A stretch of DNA of 64,000 nucleotides from Kribbella sp. NBC_01245. Its GTDB lineage: Bacteria > Actinomycetota > Actinomycetes > Propionibacteriales > Kribbellaceae. Under the pieces are notes generated by a model that did not search any database, had not been told where the DNA came from, and worked only from the letters and a program-made list of their open reading frames with translations. The translations under genes and the position numbers were made by a program. This document shows, one piece after another, positions 52,863-60,387 of this stretch (its first letter is position 1; each line of letters opens with the position of its first letter). The stretch is from assembly GCF_036226525.1 (NCBI RefSeq), contig NZ_CP108487.1, positions 7,440,001 through 7,504,000 of the forward strand, read 5' to 3'.

Positions 52863-53795
52863 GTGCCCGTGCCTCCTGCCTCCCAGGTCACCGTCCGGGC
52901 CCCGGCGAAGATCAATCTCGGTCTGTCCGTTGGTGCGCCACGCTCAGACGGCTTCCATCCGCTCGCCACGGTCTACCAGGCCGTCGCGCTGTACGACGAC
53001 GTCACCGCGGTCTCCCGCGAGGATGGCGAGATCACCGTCGAGGTGCTCGGCGACTTCGCGACCGAGGTGCCGGCCGACGACACCAACCTGGCCGTGCGGG
53101 CCGCTCGGCTGCTGCAGTCCGAGTACGACGTTGACGCGGGCGTAGAGCTCACTATCCGCAAGACCATCCCGGTGGCGGGTGGGATGGCTGGAGGCTCTAC
53201 GGACGCTGCCGCCACCCTTGTCGCGTGTAACCGGCTCTGGGGCCTACAACTGGCCTCTGCCGACCTGGAACGGCACGCGGCCACACTGGGCAGCGACGTA
53301 CCGTTCTGCCTGGTCGGACACACAGCACTTGGCCGTGGCCGCGGTGAGCAGGTAACCGAGGTCATGTCGCGCGGGACGTTCCACTGGGTCTTCGCGATCG
53401 CTACAGGCGGTCTATCCACGCCCAAGGTGTACGGCGAGCTGGACCGGCTCAGGCCGCTGCGCCGGGTGGAGCCGCCAGAGGTTGCTCCCGAGCTCCTGTC
53501 GGCCCTCTTGACGGGTGAGCCGGCTGCACTTGCTCCTGCGCTCAGCAATGACCTGCAGGCGGCAGCGTTGTCCCTACGACCTGAGCTGGGGGAGACCCTG
53601 CAGTTCGGTCTGGACAAGGGTGCGCTCGCTGCGATGATCTCTGGCTCTGGACCCACCTGCTTGTTCCTCGCTCCGGACAGTCGCCGGGCAGTGGATCTAG
53701 CAGTTCACCTGGCCGACTCCGGGCTCTGCAGGATGGTCCGGCAGGCCGAAGGACCTGTGCCGGGTGCACGAATCATTCCGGGGCCGGCGCGCTAA
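52863..53795 (+). CDS. ispE: 4-diphosphocytidyl-2-C-methyl-D-erythritol kinase
   Basis: A 310-residue GHMP kinase of the MEP isoprenoid pathway. VRAPAKINLGLSVGAPRSDGFHPL is the substrate region. PVAGGMAGGSTDAAA is the Gly-rich ATP loop, and SGSGPTCLFL the third GHMP motif. GTG 52863 is used; GTG 52869 is also possible. It is followed by an overlapping start (TAATG) of the NB-ARC regulator. Confidence 0.95.
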   Translation: MPVPPASQVTVRAPAKINLGLSVGAPRSDGFHPLATVYQAVALYDDVTAVSREDGEITVEVLGDFATEVPADDTNLAVRAARLLQSEYDVDAGVELTIRKTIPVAGGMAGGSTDAAATLVACNRLWGLQLASADLERHAATLGSDVPFCLVGHTALGRGRGEQVTEVMSRGTFHWVFAIATGGLSTPKVYGELDRLRPLRRVEPPEVAPELLSALLTGEPAALAPALSNDLQAAALSLRPELGETLQFGLDKGALAAMISGSGPTCLFLAPDSRRAVDLAVHLADSGLCRMVRQAEGPVPGARIIPGPAR

Positions 53796-56119
53796 TGCCC
53801 GAGCCCTTCGCAGTGCTGCTGACCCGATGCCGTCGGGAGGCTGGACTGACGCAGGATGAGCTCGCCCATCGCTCTGGTCTGAGCGTCGAAGCCGTCAGCA
53901 CGCTCGAACGTGGCGCCCGGCGCTATCCCCGCCGGGTCACGGTCGAGCAGCTCGCGGCGGCACTCGGCGTACCGGCGGATCCGCTGCTGGAGGCCATCCC
54001 TAGCCGCCGGGCCATGCCTGTCGTCGCGCCGCCGGACGTGCCTCGGCAACTGCCTATGGCGGTCAGTGACTTCACTGGCCGGACTGAGGATGTCTCGCGC
54101 CTCACGGACTTGTTGTCGTCCAGGCGAGGGCCGGTGGTCGTCGCGGTTACTGGCATGGGCGGAATCGGCAAGACCACGCTCGCGATCGAGGTCGCGCAGG
54201 CGGTCGCGGACGACTACCCAGACGGACATCTCTGGCTCGACCTGCGCGGCCAGTCGCCGATCGAACCGCTGTCGCCGCTTGACGCGCTGGGGCAGTTGCT
54301 GCGCGGTTTGGCCACTCCCTCGGACAAAATCCCGGCGGAGACCGGACTGGCCGCGGCAAGGTTCCGCTCGCTCTTGCACGACCGGCGGGTTCTGCTCGTC
54401 TTGGACAACGCGGCGAACGTTGCGCAGGTGCTACCTCTGCTACCAGCCGGTCCAGGCTGTGCCGTCGTCATCACTAGCCGCCATACGATGACCGGTCTGG
54501 CCGGGGCTCACCAACTGCCGCTAGGCCTGCTGGCGCCCGACGAGGCCGAGGGCCTCTTGCGATCAATGGTCGGGCCAGCCCGGCTAGAGGCCGAACCGGC
54601 CGCCGTAGCCGACTTGATCGAAGCTAGCGGGCTACTGCCGCTGGCTGTTCGGTTGGCCGGCGCGCGGCTTGCCGATCGGCCCAGCTGGCCCGTGGCCTAC
54701 TTGGTCCAGCGGTTGAAGGCATCCCGGCTCGACGTCCTCGATGGGGCTGATGCCGGCATCCGAGCCGCCTTCGCAGTGTCGATCGATCAGCTCGCCAAGA
54801 GCTCTTCGGAGAGCGACCGGGCTGCGGCGGAGGCTTTCGCTAAGCTTGGCGCCTTCGATGGTCCAGACCTGTCGGGGCTGGTGGCAGGCGCCATGCTCGG
54901 GGTAGAGCCGTATGAGGCTGAGCGTCTGCTTGAGCGGTTGGCCGACCTACACCTGGTCGAACCGACTGCCGACGGGCGATACCGCTTCCACGACCTACTA
55001 CGGGTCTACGCGCGCGAGCTCGGCGTACAGCCTGATGTGGAAGGTCTGACGGCTCTATTCAATGCAGTGGCGTGGCGGGCGTGCACACTGAACCGCCCGA
55101 CCAGTGCGCGCCTGGCTTGGGCCGATGGACGCTGGGCCGGGGACGCACCTGAGCTGGGCGATCTCGTCACGACCCTCGATTGGCTGGAGGCCGAACATGC
55201 GAACCTGGTCGCGGCCGCTCTGCAGGGCACGCCTTCGGTGCTGCCGCTGGCGGTCGGCCTGGCGCAGTTCGGGATGTCGCGCGGCTACTGGCTGGATCAC
55301 TTCCGCATTTGCGAGATCGGCCTGCGGGTCGCGATCGAGATGGGCGACCGGATGGCGGAGGGGTTCGTGCGCAATGACCTCGGCCTGGTCCGGGTCGATC
55401 TCGTCCCGGCCGGCCTGAGTTCGTTCGAACGGGCGCTGGACGAATTCCGCGAGGCACTACGGGTCTTCGAGCAGGTCGGCTCGGCTGGGGGGATCGGACA
55501 GAGCCTGGTCAACCTCAGCTATGGCCTCGAGGCGGCCGGGCATCCCACCGACGCCGTGCGCTACGGCGAACGCGGTGTCGAGCACGCCCATCAGGTGGGC
55601 GACCGCCATGGCGAAACCTGGGCCCGGATCAATCTCGCCCGGATCTACGGCGGGGTCGGGCGCCACCAGGCCGAAGTGGCCGAGTACACCCAAGCGCTCA
55701 GCCTCAGCGAAAGTGACGGCTCTACGTTGGCCGCGCTGCTCGGCCGGGGTGCGGCGTACCGGGGCCGAGGCGACTACGCCGCCGCCGAGCGGGACCTGCG
55801 CCAGTGCGCGGAGATCGCGGACCGCCTCGGGCATCGCGGCAGCCAGGCCCGGGCCCGCGCTGAAGTCGGCCGGCTGGCGCAACTGCGCGGCGACCATGAG
55901 ACGGCCCTGCGCGAGCTGACCGCGGCGCTGGAACTGGCCCGCCGGTACGACGATCGCGGTGGCGAGGCCTCGACCCGTCATGGCCTGGGCCTGTCGCTGC
56001 TGGCGCTCGATCGCGAGCCGGAGGCCCGGGCGGAGCTGGCGGCGGCGCGGGCGATCTACGAGGTGACGGGCGAGATCGAGCTGGCCGCCGAGATGGACCG
56101 GATAATTCGCGAGCACTGA
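53795..56119 (+). CDS. XRE-HTH / NB-ARC ATPase / TPR regulator
   Basis: A 774-residue STAND-type protein. The N-terminal XRE helix-turn-helix spans residues ~5-62 (RREAGLTQDELAHRSGLSVEAVSTLERG). An NB-ARC ATPase has Walker A GMGGIGKTTLAIEV near 118 and Walker B RVLLVLDNAANVAQVL near 200. The C-terminal ~350 residues are tetratricopeptide-like helical repeats. Such proteins couple ligand-triggered ATP-dependent assembly to transcription. It starts within the ispE stop codon, so it is coupled to the core operon, an insertion compared with other actinobacteria. Confidence 0.9.
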   Translation: MPEPFAVLLTRCRREAGLTQDELAHRSGLSVEAVSTLERGARRYPRRVTVEQLAAALGVPADPLLEAIPSRRAMPVVAPPDVPRQLPMAVSDFTGRTEDVSRLTDLLSSRRGPVVVAVTGMGGIGKTTLAIEVAQAVADDYPDGHLWLDLRGQSPIEPLSPLDALGQLLRGLATPSDKIPAETGLAAARFRSLLHDRRVLLVLDNAANVAQVLPLLPAGPGCAVVITSRHTMTGLAGAHQLPLGLLAPDEAEGLLRSMVGPARLEAEPAAVADLIEASGLLPLAVRLAGARLADRPSWPVAYLVQRLKASRLDVLDGADAGIRAAFAVSIDQLAKSSSESDRAAAEAFAKLGAFDGPDLSGLVAGAMLGVEPYEAERLLERLADLHLVEPTADGRYRFHDLLRVYARELGVQPDVEGLTALFNAVAWRACTLNRPTSARLAWADGRWAGDAPELGDLVTTLDWLEAEHANLVAAALQGTPSVLPLAVGLAQFGMSRGYWLDHFRICEIGLRVAIEMGDRMAEGFVRNDLGLVRVDLVPAGLSSFERALDEFREALRVFEQVGSAGGIGQSLVNLSYGLEAAGHPTDAVRYGERGVEHAHQVGDRHGETWARINLARIYGGVGRHQAEVAEYTQALSLSESDGSTLAALLGRGAAYRGRGDYAAAERDLRQCAEIADRLGHRGSQARARAEVGRLAQLRGDHETALRELTAALELARRYDDRGGEASTRHGLGLSLLALDREPEARAELAAARAIYEVTGEIELAAEMDRIIREH

Positions 56120-56195
56120 CGGCGATTCGGCGGTACCGTCAGCGTGTTCATCGAGTGTGAACGTGTGTGAATCGTGGATGTGAGAGGAGTCGGGG

Positions 56196-56300
56196 ATGCG
56201 CCAGGCGTCGCAAGACATCGGGACCTCCTGTCTCTTCGCACACCCTTGGACCCTTCTTGCGTACCTCTGCTCTGACCATGGGGATTCTGGCCCACGTTGA
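56196..56300 (+). CDS. Leader ORF overlapping the ribosome-protection gene
   Basis: A 34-codon ORF with a better Shine-Dalgarno (AGGAG at 56185, 6 nt upstream of ATG) than the main gene. It encodes a peptide containing CLFAHPWTLLAYLC and ends at TGA 56300, inside the main coding sequence and in a different frame. AGGAG of its own ribosome site can pair with CTCCT at 56225-56229 within it. It resembles the leader peptides of antibiotic-inducible attenuators. Confidence 0.55.
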   Translation: MRQASQDIGTSCLFAHPWTLLAYLCSDHGDSGPR

Positions 56301-58125
56301 CGCCGGAAAGACCAGCCTGACCGAACGTCTGCTCTGGCAGGCCGGGGTCATCGACACCGTTGGCCGGGTCGATGACGGCAGTACCCAGACCGACTCGATG
56401 GACCTCGAGCGCCAGCGCGGGATCACCATCCGCTCGGCCGTGGTCTCGTTCCCGCTCGGCGATCTCACCGTGAACCTGATCGACACCCCGGGGCACTCCG
56501 ATTTCATCGCCGAGGTCGAACGTGCTCTGCGCGTGCTCGACGGCGCCGTACTCGTCATCTCGGCGGTCGAGGGCGTTCAGGCCCAGACGCGGCTGCTGAT
56601 GCGGACGTTGATGCGGCTGCGCATCCCGACCTTGTTGTTCGTCAACAAGATCGATCGGGTCGGCGCGCGGTACGACGATCTACTCGAGTCGATCGCGGCC
56701 AAACTCACGCCGACCGCCGTACCGATGGGCTCGGTGACGGACCTCGGCACCCGCGTCGCGTCGTACCAACCCTTTGCCCCAGGCAACGAAAAGTGGGTCG
56801 ACCGGGTCCGCGAGGCGCTGGCCGAGAACGACGACTCCTGGTTGCAGGCGTACATCTCCGGCTCATCGCCGGTCGCTGCTTTTGACGGCTTGGTCGATCA
56901 GACCCGGCGGGCGCTTGTGCATCCGGTCTACTTCGGCTCGGCCATTACCGGCGAAGGCGTGCCTGAACTCGCCGAGGGCATCCGCACTTTCCTTCCGGCC
57001 GCCTCCGCCCAGCCTGCGGATGGCGCGTTACAAGGCGAGGTCTTCAAGATCGAACGAGGTCCGGCCGGCGAACGCATCGCTTATGCCCGGCTCTTTGAAG
57101 GCGCGCTCGCTGTCCGGGACCGCGTCAGCCTTTTCGACGGGCCGACGTCGTACGACGGAAAGGTCTCCCGGCTGCAGGTCTTCGAAAGCGGTAAGGCCGT
57201 CCCGGTCGACCGTGCGGAGGCGGGCCGGATCGCGAAGATCTGGGGGCTCGGCGAGGTCCGGATCGGCGACCAGCTCGGCCGGTACGACGAACGCGCGGGC
57301 GCCATCTCGTTCCCGCCGCCGACGCTGGAGACGTCAGTGCGGGCGGCTGATCCGTCGGACCGGGTCCGGCTGTTCACGGCGCTCCAGAAATTGGCCGAAC
57401 AGGATCCGCTGATCCGTCTGCGGGTCAATGGTCACGAGGTGTCGGTATGCCTCTACGGCGAGGTGCAGAAGGAGGTGCTCAAGGCCCTCCTGCTGGGCGA
57501 TTTCAACGTGGCGGCCACGTTCGAACAGACCCGGCCGATTTTGCAAGAACGCCCGATCGGCATCGGCGAGGCCGTCCGCTTCATGGGCGAACCCGGCAAC
57601 CTCTGCATAGCCACCGTCGGCCTTCGGATCGAACCAGGTGCCGGTGTTGGATACCAGCTCGAGGTTGAGCTCGGTGGTCTGCCGCGTGCCTTTCACACGG
57701 CGATCGAGGAGACCGTGCATTCCTACCTTCGGCGTGGCGGCCTGCACGGCTGGGAGGTGTCGGAGTGCCTCGTCACGGTGACCCACACGGGGTATTCGTC
57801 GGTTGCCAGCACGGCCGGCGACTTCCGCCGCCTGGTCCCCGAGGTCCTGCACCTGGCCCTCGAACGCGCCGGCACCCAGCTCTGCCAGCCGATGAACCAC
57901 TTCGGCCTGGAAATCCCCGCCGACACCCTCGCCCCCGTACTCGCCAAGCTCGCCGAAAACGCCGCCATCGTGCAAGAAACCACCGTCACTCCCACGTCGG
58001 CCCACCTCACCGGCCTCATCCCAGCCGCCCGAACCCACACCTTCGAAACCCACCTCCCCGCCCTAACCCAAGGCGAAGCCCTCCTAACCACCACCCACCA
58101 CACCCACCACCCCCTCCCCCACTAG
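56257..58125 (+). CDS. Otr(A)/TetM-like ribosomal protection GTPase
   Basis: A 622-residue EF-G-related translational GTPase. It has G1 GILAHVDAGKTSLTERLL, the RGITIRSAVVSF switch I, G3 IDTPGHSDFIAEVERAL and G4 FVNKIDRVGARYDD, followed by domains II-V. The sequence is closest in pattern to Otr(A)/TetM proteins, which dislodge tetracycline from the ribosome. The start is ambiguous: TTG 56257 gives the expected ~8 residues before GILAHVDAG, whereas ATG 56278 gives a clipped N-terminus. A His-rich tail (TTTHHTHHPLPH) ends the protein. The leader ORF at 56196 overlaps the start. Confidence 0.88.
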   Translation: MRTSALTMGILAHVDAGKTSLTERLLWQAGVIDTVGRVDDGSTQTDSMDLERQRGITIRSAVVSFPLGDLTVNLIDTPGHSDFIAEVERALRVLDGAVLVISAVEGVQAQTRLLMRTLMRLRIPTLLFVNKIDRVGARYDDLLESIAAKLTPTAVPMGSVTDLGTRVASYQPFAPGNEKWVDRVREALAENDDSWLQAYISGSSPVAAFDGLVDQTRRALVHPVYFGSAITGEGVPELAEGIRTFLPAASAQPADGALQGEVFKIERGPAGERIAYARLFEGALAVRDRVSLFDGPTSYDGKVSRLQVFESGKAVPVDRAEAGRIAKIWGLGEVRIGDQLGRYDERAGAISFPPPTLETSVRAADPSDRVRLFTALQKLAEQDPLIRLRVNGHEVSVCLYGEVQKEVLKALLLGDFNVAATFEQTRPILQERPIGIGEAVRFMGEPGNLCIATVGLRIEPGAGVGYQLEVELGGLPRAFHTAIEETVHSYLRRGGLHGWEVSECLVTVTHTGYSSVASTAGDFRRLVPEVLHLALERAGTQLCQPMNHFGLEIPADTLAPVLAKLAENAAIVQETTVTPTSAHLTGLIPAARTHTFETHLPALTQGEALLTTTHHTHHPLPH

Positions 58126-58143: not shown

Positions 58144-58195
58144 TCATCGGTCCCTTGTGACGCGGCGTGTTGCCCTTCATCGGTCCCTTGTGACC
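58144..58195 (-). repeat. 33-bp tandem repeat, two units, reverse orientation
   Basis: TCATCGGTCCCTTGTGAC occurs at 58144 and again at 58177, exactly 33 nt later. This is the reverse complement of the units found on the other side of hairpin copy 8. Confidence 0.85.
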
Positions 58196-58219
58196 AAAGG
58201 AGTTCTGGCGGGCCTACCG

Positions 58220-58320
58220 CACTTTGCATTCATTCGTCGGAATCCGCCCTCGTGGTCACAGCGGACCGGTGCAGGGGAGTTGACGGGCGAGGGCGGATTC
58301 CGACGAATGAATGCAAAGTG
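58220..58320. repeat. Large hairpin element, copy 8
   Basis: Core arms 58222-58251 and 58289-58318 are exact complements, with two outer pairs, around a 37-nt loop. It is flanked on both sides by 33-bp repeats in opposite orientations. Confidence 0.95.
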
Positions 58321-58357
58321 GAAGGCCCGGGCGGGACGCCGCGGAAGGCGCACGTGT

Positions 58358-58508
58358 GGTCAAAAGGGACCGATGAACCCCGACACACCGCGTCACAAGG
58401 GACCGATGAACGCCACCACGCCCGGTCAGAACGGTTCGATGACGCGCCGGGGTTTGGTCGGAAGGGACCGATGAACGCGGACACGCCGGGTCACGAGGGA
58501 CCGATGAG
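58358..58508 (+). repeat. 33-bp tandem repeat array, five units
   Basis: Five units centred on CGATGA at 58371, 58404, 58437, 58469 and 58502 give periods of 33, 33, 32 and 33 nt. The consensus is GGTCACAAGGGACCGATGAA followed by a less conserved CACGCC-rich half. The third unit is most diverged (GGTCAGAACGGTTCGATGA). Confidence 0.9.
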
Positions 58509-58572
58509 CGGGATATCAGGGGGTGGTGGGGATTCGGGTGGGGGTGGGGTGGGCGGTTAGGCTGGGCGGGTT

Positions 58573-60387
58573 ATGGCCGCTCCTGTCTCGAACCTTGTCA
58601 ATCTCGAAGCCGTTACCAAAGGCTTTGGGACCCGGATCCTTCTCGATGCCGTCAGTCTCGGGGTGGGCCGCGGTGATCGTATCGGTGTGGTCGGCCGCAA
58701 CGGTGACGGCAAGTCGACCCTGTTGCGGGTGCTCGCGCGCCAGGAGGAGGCCGACTCCGGCCGGGTGACGCATAACCGCGACCTGCGACTCGGATTCCTC
58801 GGTCAGACCGATGACCTGGATCCGGACTCGACGGTCGCGGCCGCCGTACTCGGCGACGTCGAGACCTACACCTGGGCCGCGGATCCGCGCGCGCGTTCGG
58901 TGATGGAACACCTGCTCGGTGGCGTCGACCACGAGGCGAAGGTCGCCAGCCTGAGTGGTGGGGAGCGGCGTCGTACCTCGCTGGCGAAGCTGCTGCTGAC
59001 CGATGTGGACCTGCTGATCCTGGACGAGCCGACCAACCACCTCGACATCGAGGCGGTCAACTGGCTGGCGGCGCACGTGGTCGACCGGGCCGGCGCGTTG
59101 ATCGTGGTCACACACGACCGGTGGTTCCTCGACGCCGTGTGTACGAACACGTGGGAGGTCCACGGCGGCGACGTGACGTCGTACGAGGGCGGTTACGCGG
59201 CGTACGTGCTGGCCAAGGCCGAGCGCTCCCGGACGGCGAAGGTCACCGAGGAGAAGCGGCAGAACGTACTGCGCAAGGAGCTGGCCTGGTTGCGTCGCGG
59301 TGCACCCGCGCGTACGTCGAAGCCGAAGTTCCGGATCGACGCGGCCAATGCGCTGATCGAGAACGAGCCGCCGCCCCGCGACCGCCTCGCGCTGGCCCAG
59401 CTCGCCACCTCGCGGCTGGGCAAGGACGTGTTCGACGCCGAGCACGTTTCGCTTGCCTATGGCAACAGAGTGCTGTTCGACAATCTGACCTTCCGGATCG
59501 GACCGGGCGATCGGCTCGGGCTGCTCGGGCCGAACGGCGCCGGGAAGACGACGTTCCTGCGACTGCTGACCGGCCAGGTCACACCGGACAAGGGGCGCGT
59601 CAAGCAGGGCAAGACCGTCAAGATCGCGCATCTCTCGCAGGCGCTGGAGGACCTCGACGGCTCGCTGACGGTGCTCAGCCACATCACTGGGATCCGTCGG
59701 GCGGCTCAGCTCGCGGGCTCGGGCGGCGAGATGACGGCATCGCAGTTGCTTGAGCGGTTCGGCTTCACGGGCGACAGGTTGACAACGCGGATCGGTGATC
59801 TGTCGGGTGGCGAGCGGCGCCGGCTGCAGTTGTTGCGGGTGCTGCTGGATGAGCCGAATGTGCTGATCCTCGACGAGCCGACCAACGATCTGGACGTCGA
59901 GACCCTCACGGTGATCGAGGACTTCCTGGACGGCTGGCCCGGCACGGTGCTGGTCGTCACCCACGACCGGTACTTCCTCGAGCGTGTCAGTGACAGCGTC
60001 TACACCGTGCCCGGCGACGGCACGGTCGTGCACCTGCCGCGTGGGGTCGAGCAATATCTTGAGCGACTTGGTACGACGCCCAGGCGGCGTACGGTGGCCG
60101 CCGCGCCGGAAGTTGCCGAGGACAACGATCCGGCGCCAGTCGTCAGTGCGGACGAGGCGCCGGCGGTGGATCCCGCGACGGCCCGGGCGGCGAAGAAGGA
60201 GCTGAACCGGATCGAGCGGCAGCTCGCGAAGCTGACCGAGACCGAGGCCAAACTGCACGACCAGATGGGCGCGAACGCCAGCGACTACGCCAAACTGGCC
60301 GAGCTGGACGCGGAGTTGCGCAAGATCGCCGACGAGCGCGGCGAGCTCGAACTCGCCTGGTTCGAAGCGGCCGAGCGCGCGGAGTAG
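58573..60387 (+). CDS. ABC-F ATPase (Uup-like)
   Basis: A 604-residue soluble twin-ATPase of the ABC-F family with no membrane domain. The first domain has GRNGDGKSTLL, LSGGERRRTSLAKLL and LLILDEPTNHLD. The second has GPNGAGKTTFL, LSGGERRRLQLLRVL and VLILDEPTNDLD. The arginine-rich interdomain linker is LRRGAPARTSKPKFR. A C-terminal coiled coil (AAKKELNRIERQLAKLTETEAKL) marks it as Uup-like. ABC-F proteins act on the ribosome. It follows ispE in many actinobacteria; here two extra genes intervene. Confidence 0.93.
   Translation: MAAPVSNLVNLEAVTKGFGTRILLDAVSLGVGRGDRIGVVGRNGDGKSTLLRVLARQEEADSGRVTHNRDLRLGFLGQTDDLDPDSTVAAAVLGDVETYTWAADPRARSVMEHLLGGVDHEAKVASLSGGERRRTSLAKLLLTDVDLLILDEPTNHLDIEAVNWLAAHVVDRAGALIVVTHDRWFLDAVCTNTWEVHGGDVTSYEGGYAAYVLAKAERSRTAKVTEEKRQNVLRKELAWLRRGAPARTSKPKFRIDAANALIENEPPPRDRLALAQLATSRLGKDVFDAEHVSLAYGNRVLFDNLTFRIGPGDRLGLLGPNGAGKTTFLRLLTGQVTPDKGRVKQGKTVKIAHLSQALEDLDGSLTVLSHITGIRRAAQLAGSGGEMTASQLLERFGFTGDRLTTRIGDLSGGERRRLQLLRVLLDEPNVLILDEPTNDLDVETLTVIEDFLDGWPGTVLVVTHDRYFLERVSDSVYTVPGDGTVVHLPRGVEQYLERLGTTPRRRTVAAAPEVAEDNDPAPVVSADEAPAVDPATARAAKKELNRIERQLAKLTETEAKLHDQMGANASDYAKLAELDAELRKIADERGELELAWFEAAERAE

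Follow-up and report, generated by a model that had tools for sequence, protein, structure and literature searches.

Does the short reading frame that runs out of frame into a ribosome-protection gene of Kribbella sp. NBC_01245 control that gene, and by what means? The window analyzed here is a stretch of 64,000 nucleotides (NZ_CP108487.1, positions 7,440,001 to 7,504,000) within an 8.68-Mb single-contig chromosome. In window coordinates, the elements concerned are these:

56185–56189, + strand: Shine–Dalgarno sequence AGGAG of the leader, seen in the sequence; sites of the AGGAG or GGGAG type occupy the same place in relatives.
56196–56300, + strand: leader ORF MRQASQDIGTSCLFAHPWTLLAYLCSDHGDSGPR, from ATG 56196 to TGA 56298–56300, 34 codons plus stop, out of frame with the GTPase.
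56248–56250, + strand: weak Shine–Dalgarno-like GGA of the main gene; AGGA or AAGGA at the same place in relatives.
56257–58125, + strand: Otr(A)/TetM-like ribosome-protection GTPase with a TTG start; NF000120 match and Pfam EF-G domains.
56257–56300, + strand: stretch shared by the leader and the main gene; the TGA at 56298–56300 is formed by the P-loop Val–Asp codons GTT GAC.

The sequence-only reading had placed here a 34-codon leader with its AGGAG site and a CTCCT at 56225–56229, and these coordinates are correct. The gap between AGGAG and the leader ATG is six nucleotides, and the GTPase frame, whose stop ends at 58125, is +1 relative to the leader. For the main start, either TTG 56257 or ATG 56278 had been considered. 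As all 29 genus orthologues have a TTG, or once a GTG, at this position and the N terminus matches that of the family, the alignments indicate that TTG 56257 is the real start, and ATG 56278 can be set aside. The TTG lies 61 nt after the leader ATG, with the leader end 44 nt inside the gene (82 and 23 nt, respectively, if counted from ATG 56278). An in-frame GTG at 56167, giving a longer protein, was ruled out because many relatives have stops within that stretch. The main gene had been said to have no good ribosome site; a weak GGA lies at 56248–56250.

The GTPase is a full-length match to the ribosome-protection model and shows the EF-G domain order in Pfam. Its match to NF000120, the Otr(A) model, has an E value of 2.5e-219 and spans residues 5–610; the 729.9 bits fall short of the curated cut-off of 900, which marks the protein as related to, but distinct from, Otr(A). 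A second ribosome-protection (RPP) gene of the same genome is 52% identical to it. Directly downstream, at 58573–60387, lies an ATPase of the ABC-F family that resembles ribosome-protection proteins (its NF000355 score exceeds the cut-off), and the gap behind the GTPase gene (58144–58510) holds a perfect 33-nt inverted repeat (58220–58252 with 58288–58320) set among copies of TCATCGGTCCCTTGTGAC in both direct and inverted orientation. Upstream, an AfsR-related regulator with HTH, NB-ARC, and TPR parts (53795–56119) is placed between an ispE-like gene and the GTPase gene; in some relatives, the ispE-like C terminus is much nearer the ribosome-protection gene than in the window.

Conservation of the leader frame in orthologues had been named as a check, and the frame is indeed conserved. 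In 29/29 genus orthologues, the leader begins with ATGCGC behind a Shine–Dalgarno sequence, exactly 61 nt before the main start and in the same frame; in the 29 fetched sequences, the leader extends 38 or 47 nt into the gene before it stops, and a 6-nt length difference in the overlap of the genus alignment keeps both reading frames. At the class level, a ribosome-protection gene was found at an E value of 1e-130 or better in 39/296 genomes. We then called leaders by fixed criteria at 122 nonredundant Otr(A)/TetM-like loci, sampled from the class, two families, and a Streptomyces-like genus. Of these, 116 have an overlapping ATG leader preceded by a Shine–Dalgarno sequence, mostly starting 61–64 nt upstream of the GTPase start, lying in the +1 frame and ending inside the P-loop codons; nearly all leaders end inside the gene, the stop usually being 35–50 nt downstream of the main start. 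Length changes are multiples of three except in four frame-2 cases (frame-2 leaders include L056, L059, L196, L215, and others). Codon 2 is mostly Arg, with CGC, CGA, CGG, CGT, and AGG all used. Within the 62 main-class loci, the leader frame contained 0 stops in 1,240 codons vs. 68 in 1,178 codons of the next frame. The leader, which overlaps the gene start in another frame as claimed earlier, is conserved and apparently coding.

Among the six failures, L171, L219, and L223 do have a leader when their sequences are read, with a weak Shine–Dalgarno sequence or a GTG start. At L048, a Streptomyces-like ribosome-protection locus, the leader begins ~150 nt ahead of the P-loop motif and stops short of the main start, and by the fixed criteria, no leader was found at L067 (Chloroflexi) or L072. 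A frequency of 116/122 at homologous loci is far beyond chance, and the overlapping leader is a putative control element of ancient origin whose geometry has been kept across actinobacteria.

The position of the leader stop can be traced to the codons of the GTPase itself: the P-loop codons GGT AAG supply TAA and GTT GAC supply TGA, and 109/112 of the +1-frame leaders stop at one of these two pairs. The stop of the window leader comes from the GTT, a rare codon. The P-loop Gly is encoded by GGT in 101/122 loci (83%), compared with 695/7,617 (9%) of the other Gly codons in the same genes. Within that P-loop motif, the first Gly is encoded by GGT in only 1/83 nongenus loci, and at the equivalent Gly of TypA, used as a control, GGC was found in 30/30 and GGT in 0/30. 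The frame-2 leaders L056 and L059, which stop elsewhere, have GGA at that Gly. This codon usage argues that the leader stop is under selection. The P-loop Val is GTA in 30/122 loci (e.g., L038, L051, L203, and L206–L209) vs. ~3% of other Val codons; followed by GAC, it gives a TAG in the third frame, which is the actual leader stop in the frame-2 leaders L196 and L215.

A second conserved feature is an RNA stem over the main ribosome site. Main-class elements (offset −82) pair leader nucleotides 8–20 with nucleotides 50–61, leaving one bulged base; their main start follows closely, at nucleotide 64. The stem reaches 12 bp in the wider class, joins leader codons 4–7 to the main ribosome-binding site, and covaries. 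Across 35 sequences, 92.6% of the cells are paired, compared with 25–47% when the partner is slid, and the covariation score is 0.192 vs. 0.101 ± 0.011 in shuffles. Double-change cells number 17 vs. 4.3 ± 1.8 in shuffles (0/500), and compensatory changes occur at several stem pairs, with few independent events per pair according to parsimony. In the wider class, opening the main site costs 17.8 kcal/mol, or 9.0 kcal/mol with a ribosome modeled at the leader AUG, a relief of 8.8 kcal/mol compared with 1.1 ± 2.2 for shuffled leaders; in the genus, the cost drops from 9.9 to 6.2 kcal/mol, a relief of 3.7 vs. 1.0 ± 1.7.

For the window itself, the cost goes from 6.3 to 5.2 kcal/mol, and the relief of 1.1 does not differ from the 1.2 of shuffled leaders. 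The canonical stem was not detected at the window leader, which has no covariance-model match and a duplex z of −0.13. What folding does give is a pair of candidate arms:

56209–56215, + strand: candidate 5′ arm CGCAAGA, leader codons 5–7, the perfect complement of 56255–56261.
56255–56261, + strand: candidate 3′ arm TCTTGCG over the main TTG start, no better than shuffles.

The resulting 7-bp hairpin appears in some folds with the topology of the family stem but is not above chance. The idea of a structure over the main start that a leader ribosome could open is supported for the wider family by its covarying stem and does not extend to the window hairpin. The pairing originally envisaged, of the leader Shine–Dalgarno sequence with the CTCCT at 56225, finds no support, being confined to the single-sequence fold of the window and not conserved in aligned relatives. 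Another candidate, a pairing of the leader start with the main codons GGCGCAT given by RNAalifold for the genus, is disrupted in the window sequence. The canonical element does occur elsewhere in this genome, at the paralogue (model E value 3e-9 at G000:C1:1630357–1630444), whose sequence is itself one of the 35 in the model.

Variation is free at the bulged base and in the loop codons, with no third-position excess, which places the constraint on the RNA and the open frame and not on the peptide. A conserved arrest peptide was ruled out, as third positions of the loop codons are no more variable than the others, and stalling need not depend on the peptide. Rfam gave no match, and the window leader sequence has no T-run; no intrinsic terminator of the whiB7 type separates leader and gene, the overlap leaving no room for one.

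The transcript carrying the leader has a candidate promoter:

56101–56139, + strand: WblC/WhiB7-type promoter candidate with the published WblC geometry, score 9/13.

The WblC promoter has been described as GAAAWY, 3 bp, TKGMNN, 16–19 bp, and TANNNT (PMC7157823). In the window, GATAAT (56101–56106) is followed after 3 bp by the −35 element CGAGCA (56110–56115) and, after an 18-bp spacer, by the −10 element TACCGT (56134–56139), with a predicted transcript start at about 56146–56147. The spacing is right, the box and the −35 element are imperfect, and genus relatives have better matches at similar spacing. A score of at least 11/13 was reached in 51% of 116 loci vs. 1% of shuffles, and promoters of this type also stand at the ABC-exporter loci discussed below. 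The tetM gene of Streptomyces coelicolor, SCO0783, is activated by WblC (PMC7157823), and the promoters of the family look to be WblC/WhiB7-type. The window candidate begins within the 3′ end of the gene for the AfsR-related regulator.

The element is not confined to ribosome-protection genes. We ran a covariance model of 35 elements on 197 genomes of the class and 320 genomes of one order and read the downstream genes from the DNA, with Pfam confirmation on a sample: behind the matches were 94 RPP genes, 26 ABC exporters, 2 MFS transporters, and 1 chimera. At the exporter loci, the main start lies at 61 or 64 nt and is in the +1 frame in 25/26 cases; the leader stop is on average 38–42 nt inside the gene at ABC and MFS cassettes (42 at ABC exporters). 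The overlap and the internal stop have thus been kept though the coding sequence is unrelated, and the conserved stem accompanies the cassette to the ABC exporters. In the chimera L284 (G661:C504, element 1496–1583), the leader and the opening codons of an RPP gene (LRTLNLGILAHVNAGRT) lead without a break into an ABC exporter, which is evidence that the cassette was captured through recombination. At the two MFS loci, L371 and L374, the leaders start with MNFVMS or MNTVMS and the stem is in another register. We give even odds to the broader proposal that the leader, as sensor and gate in one, represents a portable class of antibiotic-responsive translational switches of actinobacteria that has not been described before. 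Such switches would have passed by recombination between genes for ribosome-protection GTPases, ABC exporters, and MFS transporters, and they would sense general early arrest and not a specific peptide.

We prefer, with a probability of about 0.58, to read the region as a translational attenuator with an overlapping leader, placed behind a WblC/WhiB7-type promoter, in which the leader probably lets drug-stalled ribosomes turn on the resistance gene. Ribosomes would load at the strong leader site, the main gene having a weak site and a TTG or GTG start 61–64 nt downstream. In most actinomycetes, leader codons 4–7 would pair with the main ribosome site and keep it closed, and running leader ribosomes would cross the main start before stopping inside the gene, leaving the main gene little chance. 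A tetracycline-like or other early-blocking drug would hold ribosomes on the first leader codons and the stem would open; the stalled ribosome would leave the main start free about one ribosome length downstream, with room for a second ribosome, and the protection GTPase or exporter would be made. Early-acting drugs would trigger the switch; ordinary translation would not. Because the leader ends about one footprint past the main start, terminating ribosomes should not block it. We infer from the comparisons the translation of the leader, the stalling by drugs, and the switching, as well as the working of the window copy, whose stem has diverged or been lost.

Running leader ribosomes might also cover the start without any hairpin switch, lowering basal translation until any block of the leader relieves it, the stem being an addition in some lineages. 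This account is favored by the overlap and the selected internal stop, which vary least of all the features, and by the window copy, which keeps leader, overlap, and stop without a supported stem; we nevertheless consider it unlikely, as the stem on the main ribosome site is strongly conserved in most of the family and moves with the cassette to ABC exporters. Stem and upstream overlapping frame would equally fit translational coupling, with leader ribosomes unfolding the stem and main initiation proportional to leader translation, free of drug sensing. In coupled genes, however, stop and start usually lie within a few nucleotides of each other, whereas this leader extends 35–50 nt past the main start and every leader ribosome therefore covers it, which renders coupling improbable.

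An ORF without function in the window organism, even if functional in relatives, would be consistent with the diverged middle of the window leader and its lack of a supported stem. We regard this as very improbable, given that the start, the Shine–Dalgarno sequence, the 61-nt spacing, the +1 frame, the rare stop-giving GTT, and the promoter geometry are all kept and that the 6-nt difference in overlap length preserves both frames. The passage of leader ribosomes into the GTPase by termination–reinitiation or programmed frameshifting, suggested in the sequence-only reading, has the least to recommend it. The leader overlaps the start and is in the +1 frame in most loci, but two different frame relations occur, as the frame-2 leaders show, and the element also precedes unrelated coding sequences. 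The leader stop is moreover set 35–50 nt downstream of the main start, within essential P-loop codons. Neither frameshifting nor reinitiation is therefore supported.

The attenuator that we prefer has several known counterparts. In the ermC and ermB attenuators, which the present switch would resemble in its working, drug-stalled ribosomes open an RNA structure hiding the main ribosome site (PMC5118997 and PMC8274638). There too, a leader ORF precedes a ribosome-resistance gene. An erm-type leader ends before the main start; the present one runs past it out of frame and terminates within the gene. A single stem here ties early leader codons straight to the main ribosome site, and the loop codons have neither peptide conservation nor an evident arrest-peptide motif. 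The actinobacterial whiB7/wblC uORF senses a block of translation (PMC11550727) and belongs to the same regulatory network (PMC7157823); it acts by transcription attenuation with a terminator, whereas the present element has no apparent terminator and places its structure on the ribosome site of the gene. Short uORFs also stand ahead of the ABC-F ribosome-protection genes are5sc and tiaA of S. coelicolor, where drugs stalled ribosomes at the start codon in toeprints (PMC12421871). Those have 3–9 codons within 5′ UTRs of 194–232 nt, with terminator/antiterminator folds and no main-gene overlap, unlike the leader described here.

A leader peptide gene likewise precedes the ribosome-protection genes tet(M) and tet(W) of mobile elements. 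We know of no overlapping frame in these leaders. Control of tet(W), which is preceded by the leader peptide gene tetLP, appears transcriptional, and the role of that leader is unknown (PMC3350403). Cysteine-responsive leaderless uORFs of mycobacteria, which sense cysteine through poly-Cys codons as far as the citing account relates (Canestrari 2020, cited in PMC13236596), are a further actinobacterial case of translation attenuation through a uORF, but the present leaders have no poly-Cys run. In the open literature, with mainly open-access coverage, we found tetM described as transcriptionally controlled and uORFs described for other genes; an overlapping leader ahead of an RPP gene did not turn up, although an earlier description is possible; such a leader is also absent from the main text of the uORF4u and Streptomyces lividans reannotation papers.

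Soil actinobacteria widely carry intrinsic tetracycline-type protection genes, for whose control the literature searched gives only WblC-dependent transcription. If the reading is true, a second, translational layer of fixed geometry would explain a fast response to the drugs that these proteins counter. The leader would be read out of frame into its own gene, and its stop codon constrains the P-loop codons of the GTPase. The element also provides a sequence model for finding further drug-response genes of unknown substrate.
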